Source: Pseudoxanthomonas sp. PXM03 (GTDB lineage Bacteria > Pseudomonadota > Gammaproteobacteria > Xanthomonadales > Xanthomonadaceae). Taken from it: DNA of 64,000 bases. Position numbers and translations under genes: made by a program. The DNA is taken from NCBI RefSeq assembly GCF_014852005.1, contig NZ_JACVAU010000005.1:1-64000 (forward strand), in the 5' to 3' direction. Below are positions 51,292 through 55,336 of the stretch, piece after piece. The stretch's first letter is position 1; the number at the start of each line of letters is the position of its first letter. Under the pieces are notes generated by a model. That model was given only the letters and a program-made list of their open reading frames with translations, did no database searches and had not been told where the DNA came from.

Positions 51292-51398
51292 AGTTACTCA
51301 CGTAACAATAGAGCTGTTTTCACACTCGCGCTATGGATTCTTAACAGGGCGCGTGCAAGTCTTGCTCATCCCACAGCCCGCCAGGAAGGGTGGTTGCA

Positions 51399-51719
51399 AT
51401 GAGCACAGAGAAGAAGGCCGACTTTTCGGACGTGAAAGAAGGTTTTGCCACCTCGGGCGAGGTGAAGCAGGCGCCCGACTTTTCAAACGTCAAGGAAGGG
51501 TTCGCGGTGTCGGGCCAGATGGAAGACGTGACGCCCGTAACCGAAACCACCTATACGGTGGAGAAGGGTGACACGTTGTCGAAGATCGCCAAGGAACATC
51601 TGGGCAGCGCCAATGCCTGGAAGCAGATCTTCGAGGCCAATCGCGACGTCATCGACGATCCCGATCGCATTTTCCCCGGTCAGGTCATCAAGCTTCCGCC
51701 CAAGCCGAGCGACGCTTGA
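51399..51719 (+). CDS. Small LysM-domain protein with duplicated DFS-VKEGFA-SG motif
   Basis: A 106-residue protein without signal peptide. The N-terminal half contains two related units, ADFSDVKEGFATSGEV and PDFSNVKEGFAVSGQM (about residues 7-41). A LysM domain follows (about 52-103: TYTVEKGDTLSKIAKEHLG, IFEANRDVI, GQVIKLP), as in BON-LysM proteins such as YgaU/Kbp but without the BON domain. ATG at 51399 was chosen with GGAAGG upstream; GTG at 51390 is the alternative. The ADFSDV sequence recurs in the small peptide encoded at 52387. It may be cytoplasmic or exported by another route. Confidence 0.85.
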   Translation: MSTEKKADFSDVKEGFATSGEVKQAPDFSNVKEGFAVSGQMEDVTPVTETTYTVEKGDTLSKIAKEHLGSANAWKQIFEANRDVIDDPDRIFPGQVIKLPPKPSDA

Positions 51720-51756
51720 CCACACGACATCTCCCTATTCAAAAGGAACCGAATCC

Positions 51757-52236
51757 ATGAAGCAGAATCGCATCGCCTACGCCCTCGCCGCCGCCATGAT
51801 CGGCACCGTCGCCTTGGTTGGCTGCAAGAAGAAGGAAGAGCCGGTCGCAGCGCCCCCGGCGGCGGTGGAGCCGGCACCGGCTCCCGCGCCGATGGAACCG
51901 GCGCCTGCGGTCGTTTCCGTGACGGGCGTGACGCTGGGTAATGCCGTCGATGCCGAGCAGAAGGTGACGACCGCCGCTACCACGTTTGCGCCCAAGGACA
52001 CCATCTATGCGTCCGTGGCGACCGATGGCGCCGCCAATGGCGCCACGCTGGCATCCAAGTGGACGTTCCAGGATGGTCAGACCGTCAGCGAAGAAACCAA
52101 GACGCTCAATACCACCGGCCCCGGCGCGGCAACGTTCAGCATCTCCAAGCCTGATGGACTGCCGGCAGGCAAGTACAAGTTCGAAGCTACGCTCAACGGC
52201 ACTTCGGCCGGCGTGACGGAGTTCGAGGTCAAGTAA
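51757..52236 (+). CDS. Lipoprotein with Pro/Ala linker and Ig-like domain
   Basis: 159 residues. The signal peptide ends in the lipobox LVGC (residues 20-23), followed by KKKEE and a Pro/Ala/Glu linker to about residue 50. The C-terminal domain (about 52-159) is rich in beta strands, with DTIYASVATDG, SKWTFQDGQ and PAGKYKFEATLNG, like small Ig-fold domains. The function is unknown. It follows the LysM gene by 38 nt with AAAGGA before the ATG and precedes a strong terminator, so it is likely in the same transcript. Confidence 0.85.
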   Translation: MKQNRIAYALAAAMIGTVALVGCKKKEEPVAAPPAAVEPAPAPAPMEPAPAVVSVTGVTLGNAVDAEQKVTTAATTFAPKDTIYASVATDGAANGATLASKWTFQDGQTVSEETKTLNTTGPGAATFSISKPDGLPAGKYKFEATLNGTSAGVTEFEVK

Positions 52237-52277
52237 CCCGCAAGGCAAGTCTCTCTCCCACGTGTGTGGGGCAAGCT

Positions 52278-52309
52278 CGGGCGTGGAGGAATCCACGCCC
52301 GCTTTTTTT
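52278..52309 (+). terminator. Rho-independent terminator after the Ig-like lipoprotein gene
   Basis: CGGGCGTGGA (52278-52287) pairs with TCCACGCCCG (52292-52301), 10 bp, followed by C and seven T. Confidence 0.92.
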
Positions 52310-52354
52310 GCAAATGTTAGTAGCCTCTTCGGAGTACGCAGGCGAAACTGCGTC

Positions 52355-52380
52355 GTCCCGCCTCGGGACATAACCAAGGA
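52355..52380 (+). promoter_or_regulatory. Leader hairpin and ribosome-binding site of the first double-glycine peptide gene
   Basis: GTCCCG (52355-52360) and CGGGAC (52364-52369) make a perfect 6-bp hairpin with a 3-nt loop, followed by AACCAAGGA before the ATG. The same hairpin and the same AACCAAGGA stand before the second peptide gene. Confidence 0.6.
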
Positions 52381-52386
52381 GTGGCA

Positions 52387-52542
52387 ATGAAAGTTCTGAA
52401 TGACATCGAATTAGCGCTGGTCTCCGGTGGGCAAGCTGATTTTTCCGATGTAACCGCCACAGTCGACTCGACGGAAGAAATCGTGCAGGAAAAGAGTTTC
52501 CTGCAGAAGGTCGCCATGCTAGCGCCGGGCATGTTCCGCTGA
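52387..52542 (+). CDS. Small peptide with double-glycine leader (first of two)
   Basis: A 51-residue peptide. MKVLNDIELALVSGG is a bacteriocin-type leader with the Gly-Gly site at residues 14-15; the remaining 36-residue core begins QADFSDVTATV, is acidic, has no Cys and ends APGMFR. In this class a C39 peptidase-ABC transporter cuts after GG and exports the core; no such transporter is in the window. A close relative lies 144 nt downstream with the same leader pattern and the shared core start ADFS-VTATV. AAGGA precedes the ATG. It could be a bacteriocin, a signalling peptide or a modified-peptide precursor. Confidence 0.75.
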   Translation: MKVLNDIELALVSGGQADFSDVTATVDSTEEIVQEKSFLQKVAMLAPGMFR

Positions 52543-52648
52543 GCGCCTCGGCACTCAAGATCTGAAAGCTTGCGCGCGACAGCCCTCGCGCTACCTGTCG
52601 TTTGAAAAGTCAGCTGCGCACACCGCTCGGCTGAGTCAACTTCGACAC

Positions 52649-52675
52649 GTCCCGATGCGGGACTTCAACCAAGGA
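52649..52675 (+). promoter_or_regulatory. Leader hairpin and ribosome-binding site of the second double-glycine peptide gene
   Basis: GTCCCG (52649-52654) and CGGGAC (52658-52663) enclose ATG as loop; AACCAAGGA follows. The stem and the ribosome-binding stretch match those of the first gene while the loop and surroundings differ, which speaks for a conserved functional RNA element. Confidence 0.6.
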
Positions 52676-52685
52676 ATGGAAAATC

Positions 52686-52856
52686 ATGAAAGAACTCAAC
52701 GCTACTGAAGTGCAGATGGTTTCTGGTGGTACCGCGGACTTCTCCGGTGTGACCGCGACCGTCACGTCCACTGCGCCCGTCGTGTCGACCTGCTCGCCCG
52801 GCACATCGTCGGCCTGGGGCATGCCGTACTACTCGTTCGCTTGCACGATCCGCTGA
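52686..52856 (+). CDS. Small peptide with double-glycine leader (second of two, two Cys)
   Basis: A 56-residue peptide. MKELNATEVQMVSGG is a near-ideal double-glycine leader. The 41-residue core starts TADFSGVTATV like its neighbour, then is Ser/Thr/Pro-rich and ends GMPYYSFACTIR, with Cys at residues 36 and 53 that could form a disulfide. It is a paralogue of the preceding peptide. No processing transporter, immunity gene or modifying enzyme is adjacent. A long GC-rich hairpin follows. Confidence 0.78.
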   Translation: MKELNATEVQMVSGGTADFSGVTATVTSTAPVVSTCSPGTSSAWGMPYYSFACTIR

Positions 52857-52881
52857 GCATAGCTTCGACTGTGCACGGCAA

Positions 52882-52907
52882 GGAGCGGGCCTGACGGCCC
52901 GCTCCTC
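52882..52907 (+). terminator. Likely terminator after the small peptide genes
   Basis: AGGAGCGGGCC (52882-52892) pairs with GGCCCGCTCCT (52897-52907), 11 bp with a TGAC loop, followed by CCATTTCC. The T content is weak. Confidence 0.6.
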
Positions 52908-53029
52908 CATTTCCGCTCCACCCAGCCCGCCAAGTCCGGCAGCGGAACCGCATTCTCCGAGCCCGCTCCCCGATCGCTGTCTTTTGGACACCCCTGGCGT
53001 GGGCGACCTCCCCTCCATACCCCCTCGTT

Positions 53030-53058
53030 TTGCCCTGCGTGCGGCGGCGCGCGACAAT
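53030..53058 (+). promoter_or_regulatory. Candidate promoter of the isocitrate dehydrogenase gene
   Basis: TTGCCC (53030-53035) and GACAAT (53053-53058) are 17 nt apart; the leader to the ATG would be about 40 nt. Confidence 0.45.
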
Positions 53059-53068
53059 GGCGCGCTGA

Positions 53069-55336
<2,268 letters not shown>

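Follow-up and report, generated by a model that had tools for sequence, protein, structure and literature searches.

Two small Pseudoxanthomonas genes for microcin-like double-glycine peptides share a module with a LysM protein and with phage proteins

In a 64,000-nt stretch of the Pseudoxanthomonas sp. PXM03 genome (hereafter the window), two small genes, p1 and p2, encode what look like real secreted double-glycine (GG) peptides. Their shared part is a 19-residue module, with the consensus KADFSxVTAxVDSTExxV, that is also found in a LysM protein encoded upstream and in phage lysis and ejection proteins. We see about an even chance that p1 and p2 are microcin-like peptides that are exported in trans and combine a leader, an envelope-docking module and a variable effector tail.

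Results

p1 and p2 are genuine genes

A first-pass annotation of this DNA had proposed two tandem genes for double-glycine-leader peptides. Both open reading frames are present at the positions it gave, p1 at 52387..52542 (+, 51 aa) and p2 at 52686..52856 (+, 56 aa), and each has a ribosome-binding site 5' of its ATG (AAGGAG for p1, AAGGAA for p2). Each frame opens with a 15-aa leader that ends in VSGG (p1, 52387..52431, +; p2, 52686..52730, +), and the leader sequences given earlier, MKVLNDIELALVSGG and MKELNATEVQMVSGG, are correct. Both leaders fit the type M..L....E[LV]...SGG with a short core after it. The predicted mature parts comprise 36 aa starting QADFSDVTATVDST for p1 and 41 aa, with a tail containing two Cys residues, for p2. 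Their calculated average masses in unmodified form are 3990.5 for p1 and 4179.6 for p2, the latter lower by 2 Da if a disulfide is present. Loose GG-leader patterns run on the ORFs of the window gave five matches with one pattern and three with another, and p1 and p2 were among the matches to both.

Searching 61 genomes with p2 gave matches in five, counting the window's own genome (G000), and when a profile built from the six peptides known at that point was compared with 38 genomes of the genus, the same five gave full-length or nearly full-length matches and no new genome appeared. These five genomes are G000, which has two peptides, G013, whose p2 orthologue is 88% identical, G022 and G033, with p1/p2-type peptides, and G019. 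Peptides with both leader and module at full length number seven, in at least 6 of 395 genomes of the family and at two different chromosomal sites: two in G000 and the others in G013, G022, G033 and, in another genus, G269 and G293. The count of 6 of 395 is a lower bound, as 16 initial candidates per genome were scored, and six of the seven peptides were already in the query profile, the new one being that of G293. A pattern search of genome contigs with p2 produced 401 pattern matches and zero confirmed relatives.

The earlier reading had been made to depend on conservation of the leader in relatives and on the balance of synonymous and nonsynonymous change; the leader is kept, and the changes are those of coding rather than non-coding DNA. 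Between p2 and its G013 orthologue, 7 of 17 changed codons are nonsynonymous, against a simulated mean of 14.3 with 0 of 2000 simulations as low, and between the G269 and G293 genes the count is 11 of 31, against a mean of 24.3 with none as low, both under a simple model without transition bias. Changes favor the third codon position in each pair (3/5/13 by position for p2 and G013; 10/5/24 for G269 and G293). Together, these data confirm that p1 and p2 are genuine genes with ribosome-binding sites, GG leaders and codon-level constraint.

Stem-loops precede the ribosome-binding sites

Just 5' of each ribosome-binding site is a stem-loop, GTCCCG-CCT-CGGGAC at 52355..52369 (+) for p1 and GTCCCG-ATG-CGGGAC at 52649..52663 (+) for p2. 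When such an element was defined as a perfect stem (5 pairs or more) around a loop of 3-8 nt, located 13-46 nt before the ATG, it was present at 13 of 17 GG genes, compared with 4 of 42 control ORFs and 227 of 2000 shuffles (Fisher 1e-6); the search range was set after examples had been seen, five C39-linked GG candidates stand outside the count, and the controls were ORFs of at least 300 aa with a ribosome-binding-like site, mechanical ORFs among them. The sequence of the stem varies and the pairing is kept (GTCCCG/CGGGAC, GCTCC/GGAGC, GTGGC/GCCAC). In the other genus (G269, G293), one of the two peptide genes has a stem of this kind. Rfam at E 1 gave no match over 51300-53200, and no sigma-70-like promoter was found in 52200-53120. 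A terminator-like site lies between the upstream lipoprotein gene and p1 (52278..52301, +), and a GC-rich hairpin recognized by eye 3' of p2 (52882..52905, +) is terminator-like, lacks a full T-run and is absent from the terminator scan.

A C39 exporter is encoded on another contig

The first-pass annotation had noted that no exporter was visible. This is true locally, as a C39 profile search found no C39 gene on the window's contig, and does not hold for the genome as a whole. On contig C4 of the same genome, HlyD, a GG peptide (MRELNPAEICDVDGG...), an Rce1-like protein (sub-threshold) and a C39-ABC protein are encoded in one row. The C39-ABC protein is 700 aa long and matches Peptidase_C39 (6.6e-34), ABC_membrane and ABC_tran. 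The exporter is thus remote rather than absent: the C39-type peptidase that had been asked for anywhere in the genome is present, and the cluster supports the earlier placing of the leaders in the GG class with C39 export. A second C39 protein of this genome was ruled out as the exporter, since it is without ABC domains. Locus L002 (1330-2034, +) encodes a C39-family protein that has no ABC domain and a signal-like N-terminus.

Across the genus, strong C39 matches, defined by a threshold of our own (below 1e-28), occur in 14 of 38 genomes, and all five peptide genomes are among them (hypergeometric 0.004); with G013 and G009 removed, four of the five peptide genomes are among 12 of 38 with C39 (p=0.027), and both statistics ignore kinship. 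The frames concerned are at least 700 aa long except in G009 (173 aa); ABC domains were confirmed in the window's own genome, and elsewhere a frame of at least 700 aa was taken as their sign. G269 and G293 have strong C39 matches as well. Weaker matches are found in 28 of the 38 genus genomes, where the frames measure 244-523 aa. In G013 (L075, 6189-8624, -), the C39-ABC frame begins within the opening residues of HlyD, which is itself apparently deleted, so export may have been lost there despite the 88% identical p2 that the genome keeps. Pseudoxanthomonas sacheonensis DSM 19373 has one peptide, with the predicted mature start TADFSDVTATV, and by eye a C39-ABC/HlyD pair.

Applying the leader pattern around the C39 genes of the genus revealed further GG peptides, several of which resemble class II bacteriocins in being hydrophobic and rich in Gly and Ala; the likeness of their leaders is partly by construction, because the leader pattern was used to find them. 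A second GG-peptide family (MRELNPAEICDVDGG..., ending VYGA/TYGA) is seen at L003 (10276-10470, -), with L090 (6976-7155) and L091 (7519-7710). G036 encodes a relative (1.4e-7) and G012 a weak one (0.019), both on contigs other than those of the C39 genes retrieved there. Overall, the predicted export of p1 and p2 in trans through the remote C39-ABC/HlyD pair is well supported by this genomic evidence.

The module is shared with a Kbp-like LysM protein

The module occupies 52435..52488 (+) in p1 (ADFSDVTATVDSTEEIVQ) and 52731..52787 (+) in p2 (TADFSGVTATVTSTAPVVS). Upstream, at 51399..51719 (+), a Kbp/YgaU-like LysM protein carries two diverged N-terminal copies of it (51414-51470 and 51471-51527). 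This protein matches the Kbp structure 7pvc at 4.4e-16 and has no signal peptide by eye. The peptide profile also matched 24 further genomes of the genus, over its module columns alone, giving 29 of 38 with any match, and these module-only matches fall in the Kbp/YgaU-like LysM gene, save two long frames in G019 and G002. The LysM gene is present in 30 of 38 genus genomes and has two tandem N-terminal module copies in 29 of these 30 (by eye; G006 is the remaining one). Wherever peptide genes adjoin it, it lies upstream of them. In wider searches, 176 of the 395 genomes of the family and 26 of 200 from the order contained the module; in 22 of 23 loci viewed outside the genus it lies N-terminally in this LysM protein, and L112 gave no readout.

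To avoid circularity, we built an HMM from 31 LysM copies, all from outside the genus, and compared it with the 1126 frames of the window. The frames of p1 (2.1e-10) and p2 (5e-9) were the two best matches, and the window's own diverged LysM copies came third (2.7e-4). Copies for alignment A5 were chosen by the pattern ADFS[DGN]V, and the invariance of DFS.V in it is no evidence for that reason. In G000 and G022 the neighboring LysM copies have drifted to KEGFATSG, and the peptides retain VTATV..ST. In an AlphaFold model of the window's LysM protein, the module region has a pLDDT of 50-57 and is without secondary structure; the model used a three-sequence alignment, and these copies are diverged ones.

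The module recurs in phage and prophage proteins

The two long frames of G019 (847 aa) and G002 (710 aa) have the module near the N-terminus and lie in prophage-like surroundings. In G019, a protein of phrog_598 (a DNA-ejection family) is encoded upstream, and the long frame matches an annotated ejection protein over one-third of the length; the G002 frame matches phrog_36512, a family of unknown function.

Three pattern scans of IMG/VR yielded 21 contigs, and in 16 of them the module is in ejection, endolysin, tail-lysin or tape-measure proteins, two by resemblance only. It stands near the N-terminus of ejection-type proteins in ten contigs. Seven of these proteins (L128, L131, L140, L141, L147, L148, L149) match phrog_26400 (DNA ejection); L130, truncated by the contig end and without a family, and L133, with an L128-like start and outside the PHROGs scan, were placed by resemblance; and L152 resembles the phrog_26400 set but matches phrog_3513 (endolysin). 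In L134, two proteins have the module: an ejection-like one (phrog_3513, phrog_36512) and an endolysin, where it is C-terminal. The module is likewise at the C-terminus of an endolysin in L129 and L150. In L129, a match to lysozyme 1am7, the lambda enzyme, covers residues 23-164 and the module is at about 173, placing it outside the catalytic domain. In L132 and L144, from contigs above 300 kb, the module is in tail proteins, after transglycosylase or endolysin domains, and in L142 it is in a tape-measure protein. The L132 and L144 tail proteins belong to one family (phrog_3201) in which different peptidoglycan-hydrolase domains (transglycosylase, endolysin) are followed by an ADFSGVT module. 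The PHROGs comparison covered 16 proteins, 15 of which had a family match. By eye, the endolysins with the module have no Sec signal. An AlphaFold model of an endolysin pair was unusable (mean pLDDT 43).

The other five of the 21 contigs, namely the near-identical, subtilase-like L139, L143, L145 and L146 together with L151, are unrelated and were read as chance, as were the pattern matches in L136 and L137. As controls, two permutations of the pattern that were equally stringent returned 0 and 7 contigs, compared with 16 for the real pattern, a number that includes the four of the subtilase set. Six of those seven are variants of a single 32-residue frame, and by eye neither they nor the seventh resemble a lysin or an ejection protein. 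A tblastn search of the phage collection with the module gave insignificant matches only (best E 0.08). The first-pass annotation had taken ADFS-VTATV as part of a bacteriocin core; given its presence in the LysM protein and in phage lysis and ejection proteins, that view finds no support here, and by these comparisons ADFSxVTAxV is not bacteriocin-specific.

Tails and insertion sites vary

The peptide tails, 18-23 residues long, vary between sites and are kept between orthologues. The earlier description, a shared ADFS-VTATV followed by complete divergence, needs two corrections. The shared part is the 19-residue module, which other proteins have as well, and divergence is incomplete, since the p2 tail C.PGTSS...MPY..FAC..R is seen again in G013 and also in G019, there at a different locus and in a peptide lacking the module. 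The G019 peptide (L013, 8360-8542, -) has a leader ending in VCGA rather than VSGG, the p2 tail and no module, and its gene is flanked on both sides by sequence that reads as an M13-type peptidase gene. G269 and G293 have the tail NDRWLN.ARR.FMYNALFR in common, and their peptide gene lies between genes that read by eye as msbA and exbD.

In the window, the neighbors of p1 and p2 are QueF, the LysM gene, a lipoprotein-like gene (51757..52236, +; by eye) that separates the LysM gene from the peptide genes, and monomeric isocitrate dehydrogenase (IDH; 53105..55336, +), which forms the right border of the insertion interval. No immunity gene was recognized among them, overlapping ORFs on the opposite strand standing outside this count. 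The peptide genes are directly 3' of the LysM and lipoprotein genes in four of the five genus genomes, and in those four the lipoprotein-IDH interval measures 545-872 nt. Among the 26 genomes with the LysM gene and no peptide there, the interval could be measured in 19 and is 170-305 nt in 17 of them. The two long intervals (604 and 885 nt), in G018 and G003, were considered as hiding places of peptide genes and rejected, as they contain repeats and other ORFs by eye. The place after the lipoprotein gene (L042-L070) is taken by monomeric isocitrate dehydrogenase in some Pseudoxanthomonas and by a dimeric-type enzyme in others; the two are non-homologous.

Discussion

We prefer to read p1 and p2 as class II microcin-type peptides, small and secreted, with a three-part build: a GG leader of 15 residues, a module of 18-19 residues (ADFSxVTAxVxSTxExV) and a tail of 18-23 residues that differs by site. 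The leader would take the precursor to the C39-ABC transporter with HlyD encoded elsewhere, for which there is genomic support, and the transporter would cut after GG and export mature peptides of 36 and 41 residues. The disordered module, whose sharing among these proteins is seen directly, would then dock on a cell-envelope partner of Xanthomonadaceae, and the tail would hold the activity, most simply against related bacteria with the same partner. Expression of each gene may pass via the stem-loop before its ribosome-binding site, a role suggested by a statistical association. We infer that the module is a docking element for an envelope partner because most of the proteins that carry it either work at or through the peptidoglycan layer or would leave the cell by export, and an envelope partner would be the simplest common cause.

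How firmly this reading can be held depends on what else could produce the same sequences. That p1 and p2 are not genes, or are decaying remnants, is very improbable: their distribution is patchy, with full-length members in at least 6 of 395 family genomes, and the exporter cluster of G013 looks decayed, but changes favor third positions with low nonsynonymous counts, and leader, ribosome-binding site and upstream stem-loop are kept, with compensating changes in the stem. Still less credible is an identity as type 2 lanthipeptides, with a GG leader and a core rich in Cys, Ser and Thr. p2 has a sub-threshold match to the lichenicidin A2 family (14.9 bits against a cut-off of 32.95) and some tails contain Cys and Ser/Thr, yet LANC_like (PF05147) is absent from G000, on which ground we rejected this identity, and from the other four peptide genomes of the genus; one of the 38 genomes, G012, has such a protein.

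The alternatives that bear on the module itself carry more weight. The peptides, exported through the remote C39 system, might serve as ordinary bacteriocins of narrow spectrum or as signals, and the module in them would be a neutral, disordered spacer without a partner, copied from the LysM gene and spread by recombination. In four of five genus genomes the peptide genes directly follow the lipoprotein gene and the LysM gene that carries the module, an arrangement that agrees with such a history, as does the disorder of the module region in the AlphaFold model. We regard this alternative as unlikely though to be taken seriously; it sits poorly with peptides that keep VTATV..ST next to LysM copies drifted to KEGFATSG (G000, G022), with a peptide gene at another locus in G269 and G293, and with phage copies that are mostly in wall- or entry-related proteins (16 of 21 contigs). 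A cytoplasmic partner of the module is also conceivable, because the LysM protein and the endolysins have no Sec signal by eye. The partner might be a chaperone, protease or regulator and, for the peptides, might aid stability or handover to the transporter. GG precursors are cytoplasmic, so that peptide precursors, the Kbp-like LysM protein and endolysins before lysis would all share that compartment at some stage. We nevertheless judge this reading improbable, as ejection proteins and the tail lysins of jumbo phages act from outside and the peptides keep the module in the part that would be exported.

If envelope docking is the right reading, a broader proposal can be made, though only tentatively, and we think it rather less than probable: ADFSxVTAxVDST would be a short, disordered envelope address tag of Xanthomonadaceae. 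A host LysM protein would bear it, phages would have adopted it for their lysins, tail lysins and ejection proteins, and its fusion to GG leaders would have produced modular secreted peptides that dock on kin cells by their constant part and carry the weapon in their variable tail. A docking signal would connect the biology of the host wall with phage entry and lysis and with warfare by peptides, all in one bacterial family, and the connecting element, 19 residues long, can be synthesized and directly tested for a binding partner. The module also offers a handle on GG peptides encoded far from their exporter, which searches based on gene clusters would miss.

Among known systems, p1 and p2 are most readily set beside class II microcins of the colicin V type, which they resemble in the 15-residue GG leader, the small predicted mature peptide, the C39-ABC and HlyD proteins in the genome, and the further GG-peptide genes beside C39 genes of the genus. 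They differ in that the exporter is unlinked, no immunity gene was recognized and the cores start with a module common to LysM and phage proteins. Against Pfam MccV, p2 scores 15.8 bits, below the 27-bit cut-off, and p1 has no match. We therefore call them microcin-like GG peptides rather than microcins, given the unlinked exporter, the unrecognized immunity gene and the MccV result; bacteriocin, microcin and signal are their putative roles. A 2026 paper (PMC13174018) predicts class II microcins in Xanthomonas where the same genome has exporter parts, and states that the genes for exporter, microcin and immunity commonly, but not invariably, lie side by side. Those candidates, compared here by their description, come from the same bacterial family as the host of p1 and p2, and the main text of that paper makes no mention of Pseudoxanthomonas, LysM or endolysin. 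The module strings ADFSGVT, ADFSDVT and ADFSNV were not found in the open part of the literature.

Comparison with the remaining classes turns on single shared parts. With type 2 lanthipeptides, p1 and p2 have the GG leader in common, and those peptides also use C39-type export, but a search for PF05147 found no LanC-like protein in the p1/p2 genome. With Kbp/YgaU LysM proteins they share the module alone and no LysM. E. coli Kbp has a BON domain in its N-terminal half, and the LysM protein of the window differs in having two module copies there instead. Phage endolysins (1am7 lysozyme; phrog_181 type) carry the same module as p1 and p2 on the C-terminal side of the catalytic domain, phage DNA-ejection proteins (phrog_26400) carry it near the N-terminus, and beyond the module both are unrelated to the peptides.
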